A stretch of DNA of 21,823 nt from a virus. This document shows positions 1,881 through 21,260 of the stretch, piece after piece. A model generated the notes under the pieces. It had not been told where the DNA came from, searched no databases, and saw only the letters and a program-made list of their open reading frames with translations. The DNA lies in the IMG/VR virus record IMGVR_UViG_3300007276_000356, positions 1 through 21,823 of that record; one strand, given 5' to 3'. The position numbers were made by a program, and so were the translations under genes. The stretch's first letter is position 1. Every line of letters starts with the position of its first letter.

Positions 1881-2459
1881 ATGGGAATTAACAATACTAA
1901 CACAAGCTACGTATTCGGCCAGTTAGGCTCTGCTCACTGTAAAACCGCTGCATCTGTGTATCCACCTAAGGGTATGGTTATCGTGGCTGTTCAGTTTTTA
2001 GCAACTAACACTCCAACCGTAATGAGATCAGAAGCAAGCTCATCTTTAGCGCAGCAACACTTTGCTTGTCTATCTACTGAGCACGCTGCTCACAACAATG
2101 GAGACGCACAGCAAGCTTTAACAGACGCTTCGTCAAACACGGCTCACACTTTGTCGGGCGCTAACGCCGCTATCGAGGTTGGCATGCAAGTTATATCTAA
2201 TACTGAATACACAGGTGTTGATAAGACGAATAACAAACCAGCTGTAATGGTTACTAAAGTTGATGGCACTGCTATTGAGTTTAATAGACCAATCACAGCA
2301 GCATCTACTACGCTAACGTTTTCTAAAGAAACTGGTGACGGTGGTGAAGACGCGTCTAGTATTACTTACCCAGCAGGTATCATCGTGTATGGCCGCTGGA
2401 CAGAGGTTAAGCCTAGTGCTGATGCTGATGGTGGCGTAATTTGTTACTTCGGATACTAA
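1881..2459 (+). CDS. Probable virion structural protein (head or tail surface)
   Basis: The product has 192 residues, is Ala/Thr/Ser rich, almost free of long charged stretches, and built from predicted beta strands. The N-terminus (TNTSYVFGQLGSAH) and the ordered beta-rich C-terminus (IIVYGRWTEVKPSADADGGV, ending CYFGY) resemble small virion proteins seen in marine phage late operons; this resemblance is from memory and not checked. The middle (about 66-100) is Asn/Ala/Ser rich and may be a flexible loop. It starts one base after the holin stop and abuts the next gene with no spacer, so the pair 1881-2459 and 2460-3446 is probably expressed together and may form one surface assembly. No catalytic motif is seen. 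Confidence 0.6.
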   Translation: MGINNTNTSYVFGQLGSAHCKTAASVYPPKGMVIVAVQFLATNTPTVMRSEASSSLAQQHFACLSTEHAAHNNGDAQQALTDASSNTAHTLSGANAAIEVGMQVISNTEYTGVDKTNNKPAVMVTKVDGTAIEFNRPITAASTTLTFSKETGDGGEDASSITYPAGIIVYGRWTEVKPSADADGGVICYFGY

Positions 2460-3446
2460 ATGGGATTTGTAGCTGGCTTAGGGCATCCAGGTGTAAACTG
2501 TGGTGTCCCAACGTATTACATGCAGCAAGGTGCTGGCAATACTTGGGATGCTAACACTTATGCTACTGTTTACTTCGATGGTAGTGGTAGCATGAATAAT
2601 ATAATCACTCCTTTAACTAACGCTATGGGTGGTAACTATTTTTCTAGTGGCTCAGCAGCTGGTGGAGACGGGGTTAAAAACACAGACTCTCTTAGATCTA
2701 TACTCCAAGACTTGTATGCCACTGGTGGTATTGAAGGTGCTCCAGACTACAACACTAACAACGCTACAAACGGTAAAGATGAATTTGAAAAGCACGTTCA
2801 GTTTGTTACGATTACCAACGAAAGAACCGCAGATTGGCTATCAAAGCCGTACAAATATAACAGCGGGGCAACTTGGCCAAGCTCTCCTACAGCCACAGCA
2901 TTTAATGATTCTGATTTCACGACTCCTAGTAATTTTGTTGCTGTTACCGTTTGTAATGAGTCAAATTCCACTTATCACGACGGTCTTGCTGGTTCGACCT
3001 GGGCTAATACAGAGATAACAAGTTCTTGGAAAACTGATATAAACTCAGTTAGAGATGCTTTAAAGTCAGGTGGAACTATGGATAGTCACGCAGCTGGTAC
3101 AGATCCCTCTTTCACAGGTGTTATACTAGACCCAGGTGATGGTCCAGTTAGACACGATGGACCAGTGTATCAAGGTATACAAACAACCGCTTCGCAAGCG
3201 CTTTGGGCTTTTGGAGGTAAAGAAGGCCAAGGATCTTACGCTGCTGACGCAGTGGACGCGGGTGAAACATATAGTTTGGTTGATCTTACTATACCCGCTG
3301 GAACTGGACTAATGGCTTGGAATGAAACAACAAACGCTTTAGTGTTGCAGCAACTATATAATAAGTCAGCTGAAACAAGCGTTTCTTATTGGAAACAACA
3401 ACTATTAAACGCTTTTCAGGTAAATCTTATAATACCTGGAGCTTAA
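2460..3446 (+). CDS. Putative virion protein with von Willebrand A (MIDAS) motif
   Basis: The product has 328 residues. Residues 34-45 read YATVYFDGSGSM: a hydrophobic strand ending in D40-x-S42-x-S44-M, the first metal-coordinating loop (MIDAS) of vWA domains, followed by a helix (NNIITPLTNAM) as the fold requires. Later strands (about 113-118 VQFVTIT, and FVAVTVCNES) are candidates for other core strands. A clear canonical MIDAS Thr and the TDG-type second Asp cannot be assigned by eye. The C-terminal part (about 230-328, including GLMAWNETTNALVLQQLYN) looks like a separate beta-rich virion domain. There is no signal peptide. The ATG follows the previous stop immediately. A metal-dependent adhesion role on the virion surface is an inference from the motif and from the structural-looking neighbour. 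Confidence 0.65.
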   Translation: MGFVAGLGHPGVNCGVPTYYMQQGAGNTWDANTYATVYFDGSGSMNNIITPLTNAMGGNYFSSGSAAGGDGVKNTDSLRSILQDLYATGGIEGAPDYNTNNATNGKDEFEKHVQFVTITNERTADWLSKPYKYNSGATWPSSPTATAFNDSDFTTPSNFVAVTVCNESNSTYHDGLAGSTWANTEITSSWKTDINSVRDALKSGGTMDSHAAGTDPSFTGVILDPGDGPVRHDGPVYQGIQTTASQALWAFGGKEGQGSYAADAVDAGETYSLVDLTIPAGTGLMAWNETTNALVLQQLYNKSAETSVSYWKQQLLNAFQVNLIIPGA

Positions 3447-3770: not shown

Positions 3771-3957
3771 AGATTATAAAATAGATGCTATGCATTATTC
3801 GGTTGGTCAAGAAGTATATGGTGGTCACACTATCTCAGACATAATTGAAGAAGAAGATAAGTATTCTATTTTTATAAAGAAAGGTGATGATATTTTACCT
3901 TGGAAAGACTTTAATAAAAATATGGCAATTTCTATAGAGTATAACCTACAGTATTAA
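3730..3957 (+). CDS. Hypothetical 75-residue protein
   Basis: The product is small and beta-rich, with the core IGKDYKIDAMHYSVGQEVYG (residues 12-31), then HTISDIIEEEDKYSIFIKK and a Trp-containing end (LPWKDFNKNMAISIEYNL). The alternation of hydrophobic residues suggests a compact SH3- or barrel-like fold. No enzyme motif is present. The frame overlaps the previous gene by 41 bases; ATG occurs at 3730 and 3733 and either may be used. TAA at 3955-3957 shares its last base with the next ATG (TAATG). The tight coupling on both sides and the well-ordered sequence make it a real gene, though the family function is unknown. Confidence 0.65.
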   Translation: MMTTKIIRKITIGKDYKIDAMHYSVGQEVYGGHTISDIIEEEDKYSIFIKKGDDILPWKDFNKNMAISIEYNLQY

Positions 3958-4550
3958 TGAATAGCCCTTACAACTTCATAGTAGAGCCTTTAGGATCAAG
4001 ATACAATAACGTTAAAAAGATAGATGGTAAAGACCTAATACTAAACTCAGAGATATATCATCATGAGTTTGTAAATAGAGTTGGCATTATCAAGAGCGTT
4101 CCAAGTATACTAGACAATAGCGGTATAAGTGTTGGAGACAAGGTTATTGTACATCACAACGTTTTTAGAAGATGGCACGATGTAAAGGGTAATGAAAGAA
4201 ATAGCAAGTGTCATTTTAATGACGAGACCTATGTTGTTGGGCTAGATCAAATATTTTTATACAACAACAACGGTAAGTGGAAGGCTCCCAAAGGATTTTG
4301 CTTTGTTCAGCCTATAAAAAATACCGATAAGCTTTCTTTTGATGTAGAGCACGGAACGAAAGGTGTGATTAAATATACAGATGGAAGTTTTGACATAGGA
4401 GAACTTGTTGGCTTTGAGCCATTTTCTAAATATGAGTTTATAATAGAAGGAGAAAAACTATATAGAGTATACTCTAAATTTATTACAATTAAATATGAAT
4501 ATCAAGGAAACGAAGAAACGTATAATCCAAGCTGGGCACAAAGCAGTTGA
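3957..4550 (+). CDS. GroES-like co-chaperonin-type protein, two barrel-like halves
   Basis: The product has 197 residues. The first half (about 5-102) follows the GroES plan: a first strand FIVEPLGSRY (7-16), a charged flexible stretch (about 17-40) where the GroES mobile loop would be, then VGIIKSVP (42-49), VGDKVIVHHNVF (59-70) and a closing strand with an acidic turn (VVGLDQIFLYN, 93-103). The second half (about 114-185) repeats the plan more loosely, beginning FCFVQPI and GVIKYTD. The C-terminus NEETYNPSWAQSS overlaps the next gene by 56 bases. GroES-type proteins cap GroEL and assist folding, and phage versions such as T4 gp31 serve capsid folding. The place right before terminase and head genes fits that role, but binding to host GroEL is inferred. 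A non-chaperonin barrel protein is the alternative. Confidence 0.6.
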   Translation: MNSPYNFIVEPLGSRYNNVKKIDGKDLILNSEIYHHEFVNRVGIIKSVPSILDNSGISVGDKVIVHHNVFRRWHDVKGNERNSKCHFNDETYVVGLDQIFLYNNNGKWKAPKGFCFVQPIKNTDKLSFDVEHGTKGVIKYTDGSFDIGELVGFEPFSKYEFIIEGEKLYRVYSKFITIKYEYQGNEETYNPSWAQSS

Positions 4551-4770
4551 AGAGTTGATTAAGGTAGCTAAAGAGGCTATTGTTGACAGCGATGACGATA
4601 TATCAGCGGATAGACTGAAGAATGCTGCGGCTACTAAGAAGTTAGCTATATTTGATGCATTTGAAATCCTCAACCGTATACAAGAAGAAGAGAATATTTT
4701 GGAAGGAAAGACACAAGAAGAGAAAGAAGAAAGAGTATTTAAGGGCTTCGCGGAAGGCAGATCGAAATGA
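4495..4770 (+). CDS. Probable terminase small subunit
   Basis: The product has 91 residues, nearly all helical and charged: an N-terminal helix (ETKKRIIQAGHKAVEELIKV), an acidic turn DSDDDISADRLKN (about 31-43), then a helix with AAATKKLAIFDAFEILNRI (about 44-62) and a Glu/Lys-rich tail. A short helical protein whose TGA overlaps the large terminase ATG (ATGA, 4767-4770) is the usual arrangement of a small terminase that recognises the packaging site and regulates the large subunit. No classical helix-turn-helix can be read with confidence, so the assignment rests mainly on position, size and helical oligomer-like composition. The 56-base overlap with the GroES-like gene suggests coupled translation. 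Confidence 0.65.
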   Translation: MNIKETKKRIIQAGHKAVEELIKVAKEAIVDSDDDISADRLKNAAATKKLAIFDAFEILNRIQEEENILEGKTQEEKEERVFKGFAEGRSK

Positions 4771-6980
4771 GTTACAAGCAAAGTTTATATAAAATAGTTG
4801 AACCAGTTAAGAAGACTACAATAAGTCGGCTTAATAAAAAAAACAAATGGGAATATGGATACAATAAAGAAAATGATATTGTCGTTATATCAAGGACTGG
4901 TAAAATTGGACAAATACTGGAGATTCAAGGTTTGCGAATTGGCCTGCCACTTGAACCAAAAGAACTGCCAGTGCAAGACAAATGGCAAAAAATAGAATAC
5001 CCAAAAGAATTAAACAAACTTAAAAACATATTTGACTGGAGGGCATATCCAGAAGAAGCTAAAGATCAATGGTACGATATTATAGACGAAGAGTTTAAAC
5101 GTAGAGACGAAGGTTATTGGTTCATGAATAATGGTGAGCCAACTTACATAACCGGCAGTCACTACATGTATCTACAATGGAGTAAAATAGACGTTGGTGC
5201 TCCAGATTTTAGAGAGGCCAACAGGTTGTTCTTTATATTTTGGGAGGCGTGTAAAGCTGATAAGCGCTGTTACGGTATGTGCTATTTAAAAAACAGACGT
5301 AGTGGTTTTTCTTTTATGAGTAGCGCTGAAACCGTTAACTTAGCTACTATATCGAGTGATGCTAGATATGGAATACTATCTAAAAGTGGAGCTGATGCAA
5401 AGAAAATGTTTACCGATAAGGTTGTACCAATATCTATTAACTATCCTTTCTTCTTCAAACCCATTCAAGATGGTATGGACAGACCTAAGAGTGAGCTTGC
5501 TTATAGGGTTCCTGCAAGTAAGTTTACGCGTAGAAAAATTACTGCGAACGAAAAGCAGGAAGAGCTGGTTGGACTTGACACTACTATTGATTGGAAAAAT
5601 ACTGGTGACAACAGCTATGACGGTGAAAAGCTTAACTTGCTAGTTCACGATGAAAGTGGTAAATGGGAAAGGCCTGACAACATACTTAATAACTGGCGAG
5701 TTACAAAAACTTGCTTAAGATTAGGTAGCAAGATTATAGGTAAGTGTATGATGGGTTCAACGTCGAACGCTTTAGATAAAGGTGGAGATAACTTTAAGAA
5801 GTTGTACAATGATAGTGATGTAACTAAAAGAAATAGAAATGGTCAAACACGCTCTGGTTTATATGCTTTGTTTATCCCAATGGAATGGAACTTTGAAGGA
5901 TTTATTGACGAGCATGGACGACCCGTATTTGAGACTCCAACACGAGACGTTGTTGGACCTGACGGAGAACTAATAGATATAGGTGTTATATCACACTGGG
6001 AGAATGAAGTAGAAGGATTAAAGTCTGATCACGACGCACTAAACGAGTTTTATCGACAGTTTCCAAGAACTGAAGAGCACGCGTTTAGAGATGAAACAAA
6101 AAACAGTATATTTAACTTAGTTAAATTATACGAACAAATAGATTACAATGAAGGCCTTGGAAGTTCAGCTGTGTTAAACATAGGAAACTTTCAATGGATA
6201 AATGGAATAAAGGATACGGCAGTTACGTTTTCGCCAAATCCTAACGGTAGATTTAAATTAAGCTGGGCACCAGCGCCTAACTTACAAAATAAAGTAATAA
6301 TAAAAAATGGAACACGCTATCCAGGAAATGAGCACATGGGCGCCTTTGGCTGCGATAGTTACGATATTAGTGGTACTGTTGATGGTAGAGGATCCAACGG
6401 ATCTCTTCATGGATTAACTAAGTTTTCAATGGAAGACGCTCCAGCTAATACATTTTTTTTAGAATATATTGCAAGACCACAAACCGCTGAGATGTTTTTT
6501 GAAGACGTGTTAATGGCATTAGTGTTTTATGGAATGCCATTGCTCGCAGAGAACAACAAACCAAGATTACTATACTACTTGAGACGTAGAGGTTACAGAG
6601 GGTTTAGTATGAATAGACCAGACAAAATTTGGAATAAATTGTCTGTTGCTGAAAAAGAGGTTGGTGGTATACCAAACTCTAGTGAAGATATAAAGCAAGC
6701 TCACGCGGCTGCTATAGAGATGTACATCAACGATCACGTTGGTTTAATGGAAGATGGTAGTTACGGAACTATGTATTTCAACGAAACCTTAAACGACTGG
6801 GCTAAGTTTGATATAAACAAAAGGACAAAGCACGATGCGTCGATAAGTAGCGGATTAGCTATAATGGCTTGCAATAGACACCTTTATAGACCTAATGCAG
6901 AAAAGAAAAGAGTACCTTTAAACGTTAATGTTTCTACGTATTCAAATGATGGATTTAACTCAAAAATAATTAAACAATAA
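4767..6980 (+). CDS. terL: Terminase large subunit (packaging ATPase and nuclease)
   Basis: The product has 737 residues. This motor translocates DNA into the prohead through the portal and cuts concatemers. The ATPase domain shows a degenerate Walker A-like segment KNRRSGFSF (175-183), without the usual GK[ST], and a clear Walker B LLVHDE (291-296, with E296 as the catalytic carboxylate), followed by a motif III-like GSTSNA (about 330-335). The C-terminal RNase H-like nuclease has candidate metal-binding acids D530 (FGCDSYD), E595 (LLAENNK) and D690 (KHDASISSGLA). An N-terminal extension of about 120 residues precedes the ATPase. The length is at the large end for TerL and similar to those of Bacteroidota podoviruses and crAss-like phages. 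It overlaps the small terminase gene by four bases and is followed by the portal gene after two bases. Confidence 0.93.
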   Translation: MSYKQSLYKIVEPVKKTTISRLNKKNKWEYGYNKENDIVVISRTGKIGQILEIQGLRIGLPLEPKELPVQDKWQKIEYPKELNKLKNIFDWRAYPEEAKDQWYDIIDEEFKRRDEGYWFMNNGEPTYITGSHYMYLQWSKIDVGAPDFREANRLFFIFWEACKADKRCYGMCYLKNRRSGFSFMSSAETVNLATISSDARYGILSKSGADAKKMFTDKVVPISINYPFFFKPIQDGMDRPKSELAYRVPASKFTRRKITANEKQEELVGLDTTIDWKNTGDNSYDGEKLNLLVHDESGKWERPDNILNNWRVTKTCLRLGSKIIGKCMMGSTSNALDKGGDNFKKLYNDSDVTKRNRNGQTRSGLYALFIPMEWNFEGFIDEHGRPVFETPTRDVVGPDGELIDIGVISHWENEVEGLKSDHDALNEFYRQFPRTEEHAFRDETKNSIFNLVKLYEQIDYNEGLGSSAVLNIGNFQWINGIKDTAVTFSPNPNGRFKLSWAPAPNLQNKVIIKNGTRYPGNEHMGAFGCDSYDISGTVDGRGSNGSLHGLTKFSMEDAPANTFFLEYIARPQTAEMFFEDVLMALVFYGMPLLAENNKPRLLYYLRRRGYRGFSMNRPDKIWNKLSVAEKEVGGIPNSSEDIKQAHAAAIEMYINDHVGLMEDGSYGTMYFNETLNDWAKFDINKRTKHDASISSGLAIMACNRHLYRPNAEKKRVPLNVNVSTYSNDGFNSKIIKQ

Positions 6981-6982
6981 AT

Positions 6983-9358
6983 ATGGCTGATGCTGTTATA
7001 AACAATTTTCCCACTCAGGTAGTACCTGACGCGGAAAAAATTAGTTATGAATACGGTTTAAAAATTGCTAAGGCAATTGAAGAAGAGTGGTTTTCTCACT
7101 CCCACGAGGGACAAACTAGAGGCACCGCTAGATATTCAACTAATCAAACTGACTTTCACAGACTAAGACTTTATGCTAGAGGAGAGCAATCTGTTAAAAA
7201 ATATAAAGACGAGTTAGCGATAAATGGTGACTTAAGCTACTTAAATCTAGACTGGAAGCCTGTACCTATTATTCCTAAGTTTGTAGATATAGTAGTCAAC
7301 GGTATGTCTGACAGAAACTACGAGATACAAGCGTTTTCACAGGACCCGTATGGAGTAGCCAAAAGAACTCAGTACATGGAAAGTGTACTTAGAGATATGA
7401 AGGCTAAAGAGTTTGACGCTGCGGCTAAGACTAATTTCAACATGGATTTATCAGAGAATGATCCTGAGACTTTACCAGAAACAGAGCAGGAACTAGAGTT
7501 ACACATGCAACTCTCTTACAAGCAAGCCACGGAGTTAGCTAATGAGCAAGCTATAAACGTATTGCTAGAGGGTAATAACTACGATCTCACTAGAAAAAGA
7601 TTATACTACGACTTAACAGTACTTGGTATTGGTGCCGTAAAAACAGGCTTCAACACCTCAGAAGGCGTTACTATAGACTATGTTGACCCTGCTAATATTG
7701 TTTATTCGTACACAAACTCTCCATACTTTGATGATATTTATTATGTTGGAGAGGTTAAGTCTATACCTATAAACGAGTTGGTAAAGCAATTTCCACACTT
7801 AAGCAACGAGGACTTAGAAGAAATACAACAAACATCTAGCGCACAGTCACACAGATACAACAACTATAGAAGAAAAAACGACCATAACCAAATTGATGTT
7901 TTATACTTTAATTATAAAACATTTATGAATGAGGTTTATAAGCTGAAAGAAACTTCTAGTGGTGGAGAGAAAGCAATTGAAAAAGATGATCAGTTTGATC
8001 CACCGACTGATATGGTTGGAGGATACGCAAAACTTTCTACACAAGTTGAAGTACTTTTTGAAGGAGCGTTAATATTGGGTAGCGATAAGCTTATAAAGTG
8101 GCAGCTAGCCGAGAATATGATGAGACCTAAAAGCGATTATACAAAAGTTAAAATGAACTATAGTATAGTTGCGCCAAGAATGTACCAAGGTAGAATAGAA
8201 AGTATTGTTAGTCGTATAACTGGTTTTGCAGACATGATACAGCTAACACATTTAAAGCTACAGCAAGTAATGTCTCGCATGGTTCCTGATGGAGTTTATT
8301 TAGACGCTGACGGCTTAGCAGAGGTTGATCTTGGTAATGGGACAAACTACAATCCGCAGGAAGCATTGAACATGTTTTTTCAAACTGGTTCGATAATTGG
8401 TAGATCGTTTACTGGCGATGGAGATCCTAATCCTGGTAAAGTGCCTATTCAAGAAATATCTAATGGGGCTGGAGCTGGTAATAAAATGCAAACATTAATT
8501 GCTAACTACAACTACTACCTACAGATGATTCGTGATGTCACCGGACTTAACGAGGCTAGAGACGGTAGTACTCCAGATAGAAATGCTTTAGTTGGTGTTC
8601 AAAAGTTAGCCGCGGCTAATAGCAACACGGCGACAAGGCACGTGCTTCAAGGAGGACTTTTTATAACTAAAGACGTTGCTGAGCAAATATCTCTTAGAGT
8701 GTCCGACATTATAGAGTATTCTCCTACAAAGCAAGCTTTTCTACAGCAGATAGGTACGCACAACGTGGCTACGCTAGAAGAAATGTCTGAGCTGCATTTA
8801 TACGATTTCGGCATATTTCTAGAGCTAGAGCCGGACGAAGAAGAAAAACAACTACTTGAGCAAAACATACAAATGGCTTTAGCTCAAAAGATTATAAAGC
8901 TTTCCGACGCTATAGATATTAGAAACACTAGAAATATTAAACTTGCTAACGAGCTTCTTAAAATAAAAGAAAAGAAAAAAATGCAAGAAGAGCAGATGAT
9001 GCAACAACAAAACATTCAAGCTCAACAACAAGCTCAACAGCAGACAGCTCAAGCTCAAGCACAGGCTGAGACACAGAAACAACAAGCCTTGACTCAGAGT
9101 CAAATACAGCTAGAGCAAGCTAAAGCAGAGTTTAAAGCTAAAAACTTAGACCACGAAGCTCAAACAAAAATGAAGCTTATGGAGTTTGAGTTTCAGTTAA
9201 ACATGCAAAAGAATGCTGTCGAAAACAAATACAAAGAAGACAGAGCAGATAATAGAGAGGAGATAAAAGGAGAGAACGCAGAAAGAGCAGCGAGTAAAAA
9301 ATTCGAGTCAGCAGGTAATGATGAATTAGGCACAGGCTTGAATATGAGTCAGTTTTAA
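6983..9358 (+). CDS. Portal protein with Gln-rich C-terminal tail
   Basis: The product has 791 residues. It is called portal from position directly after TerL, from size, and from its build: a helical N-terminus, a central region with VLGIGAVKTGF and YVDPANIVYSY (about 212-243), typical of the portal clip/wing core, and long helices about 400-530 (IESIVSRITGFADMIQLTHL) fitting stem and crown regions. It would form the dodecameric vertex through which DNA enters and leaves. From about 660 the sequence turns into a Lys/Glu then Gln/Ala-rich helical tail (667-705 almost only Q, A, M, E, T) and a charged helix to about 775, consistent with a barrel or coiled-coil crown reaching into the head. The DNA here has repeated caagct/caacaa-like hexamers. 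Confidence 0.88.
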   Translation: MADAVINNFPTQVVPDAEKISYEYGLKIAKAIEEEWFSHSHEGQTRGTARYSTNQTDFHRLRLYARGEQSVKKYKDELAINGDLSYLNLDWKPVPIIPKFVDIVVNGMSDRNYEIQAFSQDPYGVAKRTQYMESVLRDMKAKEFDAAAKTNFNMDLSENDPETLPETEQELELHMQLSYKQATELANEQAINVLLEGNNYDLTRKRLYYDLTVLGIGAVKTGFNTSEGVTIDYVDPANIVYSYTNSPYFDDIYYVGEVKSIPINELVKQFPHLSNEDLEEIQQTSSAQSHRYNNYRRKNDHNQIDVLYFNYKTFMNEVYKLKETSSGGEKAIEKDDQFDPPTDMVGGYAKLSTQVEVLFEGALILGSDKLIKWQLAENMMRPKSDYTKVKMNYSIVAPRMYQGRIESIVSRITGFADMIQLTHLKLQQVMSRMVPDGVYLDADGLAEVDLGNGTNYNPQEALNMFFQTGSIIGRSFTGDGDPNPGKVPIQEISNGAGAGNKMQTLIANYNYYLQMIRDVTGLNEARDGSTPDRNALVGVQKLAAANSNTATRHVLQGGLFITKDVAEQISLRVSDIIEYSPTKQAFLQQIGTHNVATLEEMSELHLYDFGIFLELEPDEEEKQLLEQNIQMALAQKIIKLSDAIDIRNTRNIKLANELLKIKEKKKMQEEQMMQQQNIQAQQQAQQQTAQAQAQAETQKQQALTQSQIQLEQAKAEFKAKNLDHEAQTKMKLMEFEFQLNMQKNAVENKYKEDRADNREEIKGENAERAASKKFESAGNDELGTGLNMSQF

Positions 9359-14918: not shown

Positions 14919-17900
14919 ATGCCAGAATTTAATAGAAATTTCTCACAAGGCAAAATGAACAAAGACCTTGACGAGCGCATCGTACCTACAGGACAATATA
15001 GAGACGCTGTTAACGTTGAGGTTTCTACATCAGAAGGTAGTGATGTAGGTGCTTTACAAACGCTTCACGGTAATATACCCGTTACACCGGGTGTTGTACC
15101 CGCTAACAGCCACTGTATTGGTAGTATAGTTAATAACGAAGAAAACTGCATATATTGGCTTGTAGCTGGTGGTGAAGAAGAAGTTGTACCCAATCATTTT
15201 GTAACTAAAGATTATATATTAAAATACAACGTAGACACAGGTCAAACCGTGTACGTATTTGTAGACATATATAAAGTTAGAACAAAGTTAGCTACAGCTG
15301 TAGACTCTGTAGATAACTATATAACTACAACTTCTTCCGAAGGCATTAGACCGAGTATGTCTGCGTCTACCGCTGCGGGTAACTTGTACATTAAAGGCAT
15401 TAATATCCCTGGCTCAAGCCAACTCTACGTGGAGCCTGGCTATGATTTAGCTTCGCTAAGCAATGGAGACGACTTAACGTTTACTTCAAGAAGAGTTTTA
15501 AACTTCAGTAAATTTAACGACATAACAGCGATCAACATAGTTGATGACTTTATAATGTTTACAGATGATATTAGCGAACCTAAAGTCGTTAATATAAAAA
15601 GATCTATAATGGGTACGGGTGGCGTTAACGCTGCTACAGACTGGTTTGTTATTGGTGAAGGCCAAGATCCTTTTACTCACACTAGACTTGTGTCTGATAG
15701 AGTTGATGGGTTGTTCCAAGATGATGGCCTTGAAATAGTAAAAGATCCATACAAACCCGGGGCTGTCTGCGCTTTCTCAGAAGAAGAAAATAATACAACA
15801 ATAAAGAAGAGTCCATTAACGCCTCCAACGCTTATCATGTCGGCAAGTTTAGACGGAGATACTCAAGGTGGATTTTATAGTGAAACATCATTCAGTGGTT
15901 TTGTTGTTGGAACTCCACCTACCACTATAAACACTGGAGCTGCGGTTCAGTTACAGTTTACTAGCTCAATGGACTTATCCGTTAACGACTTTGTTATATT
16001 AACAAATGACTTAACAGAAAACCCTCAGTCTTTTGTAAACTTTGACGTTAGACTTCAAGTTGTAGATGTTATTAGCACAACCGAAGCTTTGTTCAATGTA
16101 GTATCTATTAGAGAGGAGATGTCATCAGATATTACGTTTTACGTTTTGAAGCAACAAACAGATCCTCTTTTTGAATTTAAATTTCCTAGGTTTGCTTATA
16201 GATATAAATATGTAGATGGACAATACTCAGCTTTTTCACCTTTTTCAGAAGTAGCTTTTCTACCTGGACCTTTTTCTATGGACCCAAGAGAAGGCTACAA
16301 CTTAGGTATGGCTAATAGATTAAGAAATCTAAAAATACAAAACTACGCACCACATCCTACAAATAGACCAAAAGATATAGTAGAAATAGATATACTATAC
16401 AAAGAAGAAAGATCAACTACAGTATACACTGTAAAAACATTAAGAAGACAAGATGGTTTAGGAACTTTATTATGGCCTGAAGACGAAGGTGGTTTGACAG
16501 ATTATCTTGACGACGCGACACTTGGTATTAGAGGTTCTATAAATATTACGTCAGAGCTTATACACGCTGTTGTTCCTGAAAATCAATTATTAAGACCTTG
16601 GGATAACGTTCCTAGATTAGCTAAAGCTCAAGAGGTTTCTGGCAATAGACTTATATACGCTAACTATCTGCAGAATTATAATTTACTAGATATATACGAC
16701 ACGCTAGTTACGCCTTCTGCCACGTTGGTTAGTCAGTCTGTACCGTACGATGTATCAAACACTAGAATAGAAACTCCGTTAAAGTCTGTAAAGACTATGC
16801 GGACGTATCAGCTAGGCGTCTTATATAAAGATGCGTTTGGTAGAGAAACACCTGTTCTAGCGGATAAAGAAAGAGGATCGCTATATCTAGGCAAAGAGTT
16901 TTGTGCTGATGCTAATTCGCTTATAACTAAAGTGTCAAACAACGCTCCTAACTGGGCTACTTCATTTAAGTTTTTTATGAAGGAGACTGCAGATGAATAT
17001 TATAATTTAGCTTTAAACAGATGGTATAACGCAGAAGACGGCAACGTCTGGTTGTCGTTTCAATCGGCTGACAGAAATAAACTTGACATCGACACTTTCT
17101 TAGAACTTAAAAAAGCGCATGATAGATCAACACCTGTTACACAGCCAGCTAGATACAAAGTTTTATCTATAGAAAATGAAGCTCCACAATATATAAAGCT
17201 AGATAGAAAAACTCAAGGTTTACTTACTAACGATAGTTTAAGTGGTACGGCAAACGCCTTGATAGGTAATTCTGTTCAAGGATTTCCAATTAAAGACTAC
17301 ATGTTTATTACTGTTAGAATGGAGCAGTTTGAAGAAAAGTTTGACGCTAACTACTTGGTATCTAAAGCCTCAGAAATGAGTCTTAAGATTAGAAACCTAG
17401 GTGGTGAAAGAAGCGAATGGTATGAAATATCAAGAATAGAATCTGGAATATTTTTTGGCGGTGGAGCAGACGATGGTTATAAAATAACAGTAACAAAAGC
17501 TTTTGGTGACGATGTAAACTTTTGCTCTACAGCAAATTCTTTTGCGAGTAGAACTGCTGGGCTAATGATAGAAATAACTCATGACGAGTATGTTGACAAG
17601 CCAGAGTTTGATGGTTGTTTCTTTGTTAAAGTCTATAGAGATAAAGTTTTAGAGGATAACGTAATGATTACGGACGAGGAGAATTTAACTGTAGTTAATG
17701 CTTACCCTGTAGGGTATATTCACAACTATAAACTAGCAACGCAAGGTACTCAAAACTGCGCTCACACTAAGAATGATGCGGGTGGAGTTATGATCAATGT
17801 ACTAGATAAGTATTACGAAGGTATAGCCGGTAACGGTAAGCCAAACACACTTGGCGGCTTAGGTAGTAGCACAGCTCATGAACATCCGTTCGGCTATGGT

Positions 17901-20900
17901 AATTCTAATTCTAACCCATATAAATGGGGTAAAAACGCCGCAACCGGTTCTAGCCAAATTACACACTCTTGGCTTGCTTTAAAAAACACGATTGCCCCAT
18001 GGAGCACTGTAACAGATCCGTCAGAAGAAAACGGTATACTACCTGCAGATGAACAGGAAGCGATTGATAACTTGAACGTGATTTCTGATTCAGCAGATCC
18101 AAACTCCGGTACTAGCTTGATAGGTGGTTGGTTAGATGCTTTAGCTGATTTTGTCACCGGCTTAATTGACGATGTGTTTAATATTCTTACTGGCCTTGCG
18201 CCAACAGCTGGACACAGAGGTATGGGTAAGCACGCTTGGGGTAGAGCTTTTTGGTCGGAAGTGTGTACTAGAGACGATGGTAGTACCGGCATGCCTTATG
18301 TTTTTATTGATGATGCCTGGGCGTTAACTTGGGGTTATACAGATGAAATGGTTCATAACCAGTACAAAAACGCCGCTTGGAATGATGACACTGGTAGTGG
18401 TGAAAGACAAAGAGTAGCTGCTTGTGTTAAGATGCATAGTGCTCCCTTCATGGGTGATTATGGTACTGGCTGGCAAGACGTAACTTTTGACGAGGAGTTA
18501 GCATTACCTAACGGCAATGAAGTATTGCGGGCAGACTTGCTAGTAACACCTTGGACCGGTAGATCAAACGGAAGTGGTGCTGCAGCGGTTGATGTTGGCA
18601 GGAATTATTTTGCTGTTGTAAGTGGTGGAACAGCTTCTGCACCCTTTACCTTTGCCCCTGATAACCAGCAAAGCTTAAAGGGTGGTACTTGGAGAAACTT
18701 TTCTTCAGGATACAACGCTCCTTCATGGGCACAAAATGGTAGCAACGGCTGTAGAGGTAATTTAATAGATATATCTGTTGTTGGTGGTATGCCTGATTTA
18801 GATGGTAGCGGATCATTAGATCATCTTAAATTTATGTCTGGCGCAGGAAGCGCTGTCAATAATATAGATGCTGAGCTTAAGTTTTTTGAGCAGTTGTTTA
18901 TTCCTGGTGTTAGATGGAGATTTAGAGAGGACCCTGATCAATACCTATATAAAACTCAAGATCACTATGAGCACTATGGTATAGTTAATTATCAAATTAG
19001 AGATATAGACGCTGTCACCTCAGATAGAAACGAGTACTATAGACCTGATAATAAAAGAAATAAATTTACAATACAAGTAGAGCAAAGCTTTGGTAGTGGG
19101 GCGAGCGGCTGGGTACCAACGCACAACGTTGCGCACGACGGAAGCGAGTCGTTAACTATAGAAATAATGGGACCTTATGGAACTGAAAACGGTTTACCAT
19201 CAGATAACCCAGCTGTATTTGAGACGCATCCAAAAGAATCTGTAGATGTAGATATTTACTATGAAATAAGTAGGGCTTATCCTGTTAGAGTTTCTAAAGA
19301 TGATGACGAAACATTAACTTTTTTAAATTCTGCTATAGAAGGCCATTTAGATAACGTGGGAGTATTTACTCAAACTGAAGGTTTGGCCGTTGTAGGATAC
19401 GAGTTTTCTGATATAGCAGGAACCAACTCGGCTGTAGCTTTACAAGTAAACCTTGACGTAGCAGCGTTTCCATTTATCATTCAGCAAGGAGATATATTCA
19501 GAATACGAGATAGTTGGGGTGGTGCTGTAGACGTTTCAGTAGCCGCGCCTTATGTTGCTGGTAGCTTTGAAATACTAATAGATCCAAACATACACAATAA
19601 GAGAATTGAGCTTCCTTGGTTTAACTGCTATTCGTTTGGTAATGGTGTTGAGTCTAATAGAATAAGAGATGATTTTAATCAACCGTTTATCACTAACGGT
19701 GTTAAAGCTTCTACAACACTAGCAGAACAATATAAAGAAGAGAGAAGAAAAGAAGGCTTAATATTCTCAGGCATATATAATTCTAAGTCTGGCGTAAACA
19801 GATTTAATCAATTTATACAAGCGGAGCCTATTACAAAAGACTTAAATCCTGACAACGGTAGTATACAGAAATTATTTACTAGAGACACTGATATTGTTAC
19901 TTTCTGTGAAGATAAAGTATTAAAAATACTTTCTCAAAAAGACGCTTTATTTAATGCTGATGGTAATACAAACGTTACAGCTACGTCTAAAGTTTTAGGT
20001 CAAGCAATACCTTTTGCTGGAGACTTTGGTATATCTAAAAATCCAGAGTCTTTTGCTGCAGATCAATATAGATGTTATTTTACAGATGTACAAAGAGGCG
20101 CTGCTCTTAGACTATCTAAAGATGGTCTTACACCTATATCTGACTATGGTATGAAAGATTGGTTTACAGATAAGCTTTACTCTTTGGACAAGCCAAGAAT
20201 AATAGGTAGCTTTGATGCAAGGAAAAATAATTACAACTTAACAATATCAAATAGAGCTGGATCTGCTAACGCTGTTCCTTATCAAAACGTAAACCCAGGA
20301 GAAATGGTGTTTACTGGTTTAAGTTCAGGACATTACGAAAATGGATTAGGGCATGTTACTGACGAACCAGAGGTTACAGAAGGAGATCCTTTAGATATAG
20401 ATGACACGGTAGACGTAGTAGAAGATAATGGAACTTGCGTTGGAGATTGCTGCAATCACCCGCTTAGAGGTTATGCAAATCCAAACTCATTTGGATCAAA
20501 TCAAAACGCTCCTGGAACTGCTTGGGGCTTTGGGCCCGGTAGTGTGTTTTGGTCGCCAGGTGATATTGAGTTTGACGGTTGGCAAGAGCCAGTGCCTGGT
20601 GTAGGAAACGGTGTGTTTGATAAACCGTGGTGGAGTTCAACCGTTTTGGGTAACGCGGCGTTTATAAACTACGTGTTTTATAATGATGGAACATGGATAG
20701 GTAATGGTACGAGTAACCTTGGGACAAGTGGAATATGGCAGCAAAACTTTAATCCAAGCTCATTCCTAACTCCAATACATCCAAGTGGCCCAGGATTAAA
20801 TCCTACTGATGGTGTGGAAGGCGATGCAACTGGTATGGCTTCTTGGGACGGCGTGAACTGTACTGAAGGCGGAGACGCGACACCACCTCCATCAACAGAT

Positions 20901-21260
20901 CCATGCCTAAATGTCGATGCTGATGGTAACGTTTATTGGATGCCGCCAGAAGGACCAGATGCTTTACCAAACTACTCTTGGTTCCCTGAATTAGGTTGGC
21001 CATGTGGTTTAGTTAATAGTGGTATTCCAACTGCTCAAGGAGCTATACTATATCCAGGCGTAGTCAAATACAATGGTTATGACTACGTTGTGGGAGGTTA
21101 TGCTTTTAGACTACAAAATGAGTTTGGTGTTTACGCCCCAGATTATTTTGCTTGGAATAGTGTTTTATATCCTAGTGGTAGTAGCGGGTATACTGATGGT
21201 AACAATGACAACGGAGCTCACATAGCTGCATTTAATAACTTCTGTACAAACTGTGAATAA
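14919..21260 (+). CDS. Giant tail nozzle / stabilization-like protein
   Basis: The product has 2113 residues. The N-terminus (MNKDLDERIVPTGQYRDAVN, 13-32, then a Ser/Gly-rich segment and LQTLHGN) is the type seen in podovirus and crAss-like tail stabilization/nozzle proteins. Near 1720-1775 comes a matching propeller-like segment (YFTDVQRGAALRLS, GLTPISDYGMKDWF, NNYNLTIS). Between them lie about 1700 residues of mostly beta-rich sequence. An inserted region about 970-1400 is Gly/Asn/Trp-rich and holds an amphipathic hydrophobic helix (1067-1094) and a DxDGSGxLD loop (1293-1301) like Ca-binding loops. The last about 330 residues are Gly/Pro/Trp-rich with CVGDCC (near 1842), a PPP linker and a terminal CTNCE, likely a separate distal, possibly host-contacting, domain. 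Nozzle assignment is inference from the motifs and gene order; internal enzymatic activity is not visible. Confidence 0.75.
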   Translation: MPEFNRNFSQGKMNKDLDERIVPTGQYRDAVNVEVSTSEGSDVGALQTLHGNIPVTPGVVPANSHCIGSIVNNEENCIYWLVAGGEEEVVPNHFVTKDYILKYNVDTGQTVYVFVDIYKVRTKLATAVDSVDNYITTTSSEGIRPSMSASTAAGNLYIKGINIPGSSQLYVEPGYDLASLSNGDDLTFTSRRVLNFSKFNDITAINIVDDFIMFTDDISEPKVVNIKRSIMGTGGVNAATDWFVIGEGQDPFTHTRLVSDRVDGLFQDDGLEIVKDPYKPGAVCAFSEEENNTTIKKSPLTPPTLIMSASLDGDTQGGFYSETSFSGFVVGTPPTTINTGAAVQLQFTSSMDLSVNDFVILTNDLTENPQSFVNFDVRLQVVDVISTTEALFNVVSIREEMSSDITFYVLKQQTDPLFEFKFPRFAYRYKYVDGQYSAFSPFSEVAFLPGPFSMDPREGYNLGMANRLRNLKIQNYAPHPTNRPKDIVEIDILYKEERSTTVYTVKTLRRQDGLGTLLWPEDEGGLTDYLDDATLGIRGSINITSELIHAVVPENQLLRPWDNVPRLAKAQEVSGNRLIYANYLQNYNLLDIYDTLVTPSATLVSQSVPYDVSNTRIETPLKSVKTMRTYQLGVLYKDAFGRETPVLADKERGSLYLGKEFCADANSLITKVSNNAPNWATSFKFFMKETADEYYNLALNRWYNAEDGNVWLSFQSADRNKLDIDTFLELKKAHDRSTPVTQPARYKVLSIENEAPQYIKLDRKTQGLLTNDSLSGTANALIGNSVQGFPIKDYMFITVRMEQFEEKFDANYLVSKASEMSLKIRNLGGERSEWYEISRIESGIFFGGGADDGYKITVTKAFGDDVNFCSTANSFASRTAGLMIEITHDEYVDKPEFDGCFFVKVYRDKVLEDNVMITDEENLTVVNAYPVGYIHNYKLATQGTQNCAHTKNDAGGVMINVLDKYYEGIAGNGKPNTLGGLGSSTAHEHPFGYGNSNSNPYKWGKNAATGSSQITHSWLALKNTIAPWSTVTDPSEENGILPADEQEAIDNLNVISDSADPNSGTSLIGGWLDALADFVTGLIDDVFNILTGLAPTAGHRGMGKHAWGRAFWSEVCTRDDGSTGMPYVFIDDAWALTWGYTDEMVHNQYKNAAWNDDTGSGERQRVAACVKMHSAPFMGDYGTGWQDVTFDEELALPNGNEVLRADLLVTPWTGRSNGSGAAAVDVGRNYFAVVSGGTASAPFTFAPDNQQSLKGGTWRNFSSGYNAPSWAQNGSNGCRGNLIDISVVGGMPDLDGSGSLDHLKFMSGAGSAVNNIDAELKFFEQLFIPGVRWRFREDPDQYLYKTQDHYEHYGIVNYQIRDIDAVTSDRNEYYRPDNKRNKFTIQVEQSFGSGASGWVPTHNVAHDGSESLTIEIMGPYGTENGLPSDNPAVFETHPKESVDVDIYYEISRAYPVRVSKDDDETLTFLNSAIEGHLDNVGVFTQTEGLAVVGYEFSDIAGTNSAVALQVNLDVAAFPFIIQQGDIFRIRDSWGGAVDVSVAAPYVAGSFEILIDPNIHNKRIELPWFNCYSFGNGVESNRIRDDFNQPFITNGVKASTTLAEQYKEERRKEGLIFSGIYNSKSGVNRFNQFIQAEPITKDLNPDNGSIQKLFTRDTDIVTFCEDKVLKILSQKDALFNADGNTNVTATSKVLGQAIPFAGDFGISKNPESFAADQYRCYFTDVQRGAALRLSKDGLTPISDYGMKDWFTDKLYSLDKPRIIGSFDARKNNYNLTISNRAGSANAVPYQNVNPGEMVFTGLSSGHYENGLGHVTDEPEVTEGDPLDIDDTVDVVEDNGTCVGDCCNHPLRGYANPNSFGSNQNAPGTAWGFGPGSVFWSPGDIEFDGWQEPVPGVGNGVFDKPWWSSTVLGNAAFINYVFYNDGTWIGNGTSNLGTSGIWQQNFNPSSFLTPIHPSGPGLNPTDGVEGDATGMASWDGVNCTEGGDATPPPSTDPCLNVDADGNVYWMPPEGPDALPNYSWFPELGWPCGLVNSGIPTAQGAILYPGVVKYNGYDYVVGGYAFRLQNEFGVYAPDYFAWNSVLYPSGSSGYTDGNNDNGAHIAAFNNFCTNCE

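Follow-up and report, generated by a model that had tools for sequence, protein, structure and literature searches.

The window analysed here is the whole 21,823-nucleotide (21.8-kb) stretch of the IMG/VR virus record IMGVR_UViG_3300007276_000356. One of its genes encodes a 328-residue protein with the short motif DGSGSM, which raises the question of whether a phage particle carries a metal-dependent adhesion site (MIDAS) of the vWA type, and what such a site would do there. A preliminary description, made from the letters alone, had read the motif in this way and had placed it in a probable surface protein of a Bacteroidota phage. Handles such as L023 denote related loci on other contigs. The features discussed below are as follows.

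1881..2459, + strand: conserved partner gene, 192 aa, directly upstream of the slot; family with conserved ends, found in 40 distinct loci
2460..3446, + strand: vWA-like protein, 328 aa, occupant of the variable slot; ORF with ATG start, AlphaFold2 alpha/beta model
2577..2594, + strand: MIDAS motif 1, D40-G-S-G-S-M45; DxSGSM invariant in 15 aligned members
2724..2747, + strand: conserved loop GGIEGAPD, residues 89-96, with E92 invariant in the alignment; low model confidence at 89-95
2763..2774, + strand: ATNG, residues 102-105, candidate MIDAS motif 2 (T103) before helix 106-112 of the model; T103-N104-G105 invariant
2952..2963, + strand: CNES, residues 165-168, candidate MIDAS loop 3 (putative assignment) after strand 158-164; N166 and E167 invariant
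4767..6980, + strand: terminase large subunit (TerL), basis of the phage tree; phrog_6681, E 1e-168, relatives in Flavobacteriia phages

Genomic setting and phage group

The TAA of the 192-aa gene abuts the ATG of the vWA-like gene with 0 bases between them, a direct junction that had been noted before. Downstream lie the terminase (phrog_6681), the portal (phrog_6547) and several genes with virion-structural PHROG matches. Because the cultured phages with related TerL infect Flavobacterium, Cellulophaga, Tenacibaculum and Maribacter, the assignment to a Bacteroidota phage is well supported and the preliminary description is borne out on this point; a podovirus-type genome is likewise supported, and Maribacter phage Panino is podoviral by description (PMC11590407). 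The window also encodes a 2113-aa virion structural protein (14919-21260), the N-terminal part of which matched the Pfam profile of the Crassvirus muzzle protein below threshold (PF25731, E 6.4e-6, 25 bits with the cut-off at 27), which suggests a crass-like tail organisation. Inside the same protein, at 18795-18821, the sequence DLDGSGSLD resembles by eye an EF-hand-like or dockerin-like calcium loop.

Motif 1, predicted fold and candidate ligands

Relatives of the vWA-like protein were found on 18 IMG/VR contigs by protein-based scans and in L202 by a DNA-pattern scan, and 15 members with 37-92% identity to the window protein were aligned. The sequence YFDGSGSM occupies residues 38-45 of the ORF at 2460-3446, and is flanked by a predicted strand (33-40) and a predicted helix (43-57), both as proposed earlier; DxSxS at the end of strand 1 and followed by a helix is the arrangement expected of motif 1 in a vWA domain. 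DxSGSM is invariant in 15/15 aligned members, the residue after D being G, N, S or A. In the non-family ORFs of the same loci it occurs once in 440,788 residues, while the loose form DxSxS occurs 206 times, and the ORF with the lone outside occurrence (L198) is the top match of a profile built from genuine cellular vWA domains. Given its invariance in the family and this single occurrence elsewhere, the motif is more than chance. An EF-hand reading of DGSGS was rejected, since relatives have DNSGS, DSSGS or DASGS and a DxD is absent.

An AlphaFold2 model of the window protein, based on 15 sequences (pLDDT 74, pTM 0.79), predicts alternating strands (33-40, 113-118, 158-164, 217-224 and 293-298) and helices (43-57, 78-86, 106-112, 188-201, 244-254 and 308-319), and not the all-beta fold that the preliminary description had named as contrary to its vWA reading. 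The vWA fold was taken as a Rossmann-like alternating alpha/beta fold with a central sheet of order 3-2-1-4-5-6. A first, weaker model (pLDDT 53) matched three viral proteins in BFVD (probability 1.00, E 2.6e-6 to 9.4e-6), one of which is annotated as VWFA (E 9.4e-6); these matches belong to that first model and not to the pLDDT 74 model. With either model, a fold search of the PDB gave no significant match to any solved structure, vWA included, and with the better model flavodoxin-like and caspase-like folds came out on top, all insignificant.

At the sequence level, HHalign of the family against 17 cellular vWA domains, taken from bacterial genomes, aligned the strand-DxSGSM-helix block with a score of 30.6 (P 8e-4), 20 column shuffles scoring at most 15.3, with a probability of just 24%; beyond this block there was no confident alignment. 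A profile built from the same 17 domains did not detect the family above noise (E >1), and sequence alone is therefore no proof of vWA membership. Scans of the protein and its relatives against Pfam, PHROGs and NCBIfam gave no vWA match and nothing relevant, a search of the window record with the vWA profile PF13519 gave no match, and the window protein matched no Laminin_G_3 or ConA-like profile. No cellular relatives of the family were found in a scan of genome contigs, and tblastn against 50,697 phage records found relatives of neither the window protein nor the L023 member, and for the L027 member gave marginal matches alone (E 0.9). A PDB-sequence match to the SAKe design 7on7 (E 1e-9 to 1e-11) was rejected as a chance match, in which a single 26-residue stretch (YATGGIEGAPDYNT...) was scored against six near-identical repeats at about 8.7 bits each. 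We call the protein vWA-like. The earlier interpretation is partly supported, by DxSGSM in its strand-helix context, the alpha/beta model, the viral VWFA fold match of the first model, the type of phage genome and a place in a variable slot whose other occupants are LamG-like or fibre-like; a family-profile match and a significant vWA match in the PDB were not found.

The invariant residues of the family include T33, D40, S42, G43, S44, M45, E92, T103, N104, G105, E121, T155, N166 and E167. For the MIDAS threonine and second aspartate, for which the preliminary description had proposed a check, these residues offer candidates only. Candidates for the threonine are T103, in the TNG before helix 106-112, and T155, and the likeness of T103-N104-G105 to the STNG of YfbK-type vWA domains makes this segment a candidate motif 2. 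The third, distal ligand would be E121 or N166/E167, none of which is a canonical Asp. In longer members of the family (433-479 aa) an insert of about 100-150 residues follows the N-E motif and contains a 'TLSxAxxFxxGTxLTF' stretch. These members are encoded at the following positions.

L023: 8001-9308
L024: 858-2159
L026: 8001-9302
L027: 760-2199
L028: 3519-4952
L030: 4387-5700
L036: 2509-3825

A variable slot behind a conserved partner

What the preliminary description had chiefly missed is that the slot is exchangeable and the vWA-like gene just one of its occupants. The partner directly upstream comes from a family whose members measure 81-234 aa; their middle part varies and both ends are conserved (FGQxGS and FPxGxxIYGRW...GGVIxYxG). 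In 40 distinct loci the next gene after the partner was vWA-like in 14, LamG/ConA-like in 14 (several of these pass the Pfam Laminin_G_3 cut-off, and the weaker ones were classed by similarity to those), of another kind, including fibre-like genes, in 8, absent in 3 and unclassed in 1. The equal numbers of vWA-like and LamG-like genes (14:14) are not a frequency, because several of the scans targeted the vWA-like gene. Among 80 loci gathered by TerL similarity a vWA-like gene was present in one, L041, a contig whose vWA-like protein and TerL are both the same as those of the window.

On a tree of 32 phages, which represents one gene (TerL) with support values from a short search, at least 15 changes are required to account for the five slot classes, compared with a mean of 17.2 for shuffled labels; a count this low arose in 21 of the 200 shuffles. 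For the vWA label by itself, 6 changes are required, 5 of them forced by the starred branches. The nearest TerL neighbour of the window, L042 (87% identity), has an empty slot. From these results we conclude that occupant and phage phylogeny are nearly uncoupled, which is the expected outcome of exchange by recombination; over the 40 loci, and with at least 15 changes, this is a fixed genomic slot with alternative, unrelated occupants.

The occupants also resemble each other at their N-termini. In 29/36 slot proteins, compared with 25/1039 other ORFs, GL or GM follows an A, G, L or T close to the N-terminus, as in MLGLG..., MGFVAGLG... and MLGLN..., although the pattern was picked post hoc and members of the same family are not independent. 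The likeness extends over vWA-like, LamG-like and some other occupants, and so over unrelated domains, which suggests a common docking peptide.

Behind the vWA-like gene, L023, L024, L026 and L202 have first a gene whose product begins with MARIxTYxIDxLDxNDKLxGTD, then a long, repetitive, fibre-like gene. The MARIxTYxIDxLDxNDKLxGTD N-terminus matches the elemo phage genes gp33 and gp34 weakly (E ~1e-4); by eye it is also similar to the N-terminus of phi38:1 gp085, a protein with an S74 endosialidase-chaperone domain near its end, and to that of gp087, annotated as a tail protein. Phages phi38:1 and phi46:3 have annotated tail fibre genes before TerL, and phi46:3 also has virion structural genes there. 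Going by position and similarity, the vWA-like protein may be located in the virion.

Proposed function, alternatives and known systems

Since the slot holds a lectin-like gene, a fibre-like gene or no gene in close relatives, the vWA-like protein is probably one of several exchangeable modules for binding the host surface. We propose, with a probability of roughly 0.55, that it is an exchangeable, probably metal-dependent virion module of a marine podovirus-type phage of Bacteroidota that binds the host surface; this proposal builds on the conserved motif, the predicted alpha/beta fold, and the position and exchange of the slot. The short N-terminal leader would attach the protein to the virion by docking, at a site close to the partner or built jointly with it. 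In the folded domain, D40, S42 and S44 would hold a divalent metal, and with this metal the domain would attach to an acidic group of a protein or glycan on the host surface. By exchanging the module for a LamG/ConA-like lectin or a fibre-like protein, or by losing it, phages would alter the target to which the particle adheres. A more detailed version, to which we give somewhat less than even odds, describes a modular adhesin slot of marine Bacteroidota podoviruses, in which the conserved partner and a shared GL-rich docking peptide would carry unrelated folded heads. Such a head would be a LamG/ConA lectin or a divergent vWA-like MIDAS module whose distal ligand is non-canonical, and the horizontal swapping of heads would alter host binding.

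The slot proteins may instead be capsid-decoration or head-fibre domains that bind environmental or extracellular glycans, and not the primary receptor-binding protein of the tail. Small, repetitive, beta-rich-looking proteins are encoded just upstream in L020, L028 and L029, the 3 of 40 loci without a slot gene indicate that it is dispensable in some phages, and the crass-like features (the muzzle-protein match) make a head-fibre arrangement thinkable. Gene position does not separate a tail fibre from a head fibre. The fibre-like genes behind the vWA-like gene in L023, L024, L026 and L202 and the tail fibre genes annotated before TerL in phi38:1 and phi46:3 argue against this alternative, and we consider it unlikely. 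A pairing with an AAA+ ATPase (MoxR-like), in which the protein would be an intracellular or assembly vWA adaptor and not a surface binder, has precedents in haloarchaeal and other viruses, in which vWA-MIDAS proteins have AAA ATPases as partners (PMC7911831). The scanned proteins of the window, whose contig is a fragment, included no recognisable AAA+ ATPase, and the alternative occupants of the slot are LamG-like and fibre-like, not regulators; we regard such an adaptor as very improbable and rejected a MoxR-type AAA/vWA pair for the window.

The protein could also be no vWA homologue but another alpha/beta protein of Rossmann-like fold, with a DxSGSM of independent origin that may hold a metal or a phosphate in a different role. 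The missing vWA profile and PDB matches, the insignificant flavodoxin-like and caspase-like folds that ranked first, and the alignment of just motif 1 with cellular vWA domains are in keeping with such an origin, whereas the canonical strand-DxSGSM-helix context of an invariant motif, the viral VWFA protein (E 9.4e-6) in the fold search with the first model, and T103-N104-G105 before a helix, resembling vWA motif 2, make it improbable in our judgement.

The proposed host-binding module shares with bacterial vWA/MIDAS domains (PF00092, PF13519; e.g. E. coli YfbK) a DxSGSM between a hydrophobic strand and a helix, a (here predicted) alternating alpha/beta fold and a TNG before a later helix, comparable to the YfbK-type STNG. 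It differs from them in that there is no family-profile match, that motif 1 alone aligns, that the distal ligand would be E or N and not D, and that it is a free-standing phage gene. In Bacillus phage 0305phi8-36, gp164 carries a vWA domain in a baseplate/fibre gene, and this domain is swapped between relatives (PMC2147016); there, however, the host is Gram-positive, the phage a myovirus and the vWA domain the central part of a larger protein, whereas the window family is a separate gene replaced as a unit, with LamG-like genes as the main alternative. VWA is also among the domains associated with the target-binding fibre proteins of extracellular contractile injection systems (PMC12923769); these particles are phage-derived, but their fibres are multidomain and differ in this from a free-standing phage gene. 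The haloarchaeal vWA-MIDAS proteins resemble ours as proteins of tailed viruses, but belong to a replication or accessory module beside an AAA gene and not to a structural/fibre region in which no AAA gene was recognised.

Given the phage 0305phi8-36 and injection-system precedents, a vWA domain in a swapped fibre region of a phage is known in kind. What is new is a vWA-like family that is divergent, free-standing and unmatched in Pfam, PHROGs and NCBIfam, the fact that LamG-like genes take its place after one and the same conserved partner, and the group of phages concerned. If the proposed reading is correct, the slot would be a defined place of binding-specificity exchange in marine Bacteroidota phages, where apparently one attachment system bears heads of two different chemistries, a lectin and a possible metal-dependent MIDAS. 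Binding of the vWA type would then also reach to a free-standing surface module of phages, and predictions on host binding would become testable from sequence.

Three further genes were recorded. A GroES-like gene (3957-4550; phrog_13932, E 9e-12) lies shortly 5' of the terminase, and GroES-annotated genes occur at the equivalent place in the Flavobacterium, Cellulophaga and Maribacter relatives. Just 5' of the GroES-like gene, the relative L005 has a 122-aa SET-domain gene (8707-9075; PF00856, E 5.5e-9, above the cut-off), at a place where the window has no gene. A 125-aa protein encoded at 757-1134 of the window contains a zinc-peptidase-like motif, VVAHEMKHM, with a weak M90 match (E 0.011), and is kept upstream in L023, L026 and L202.
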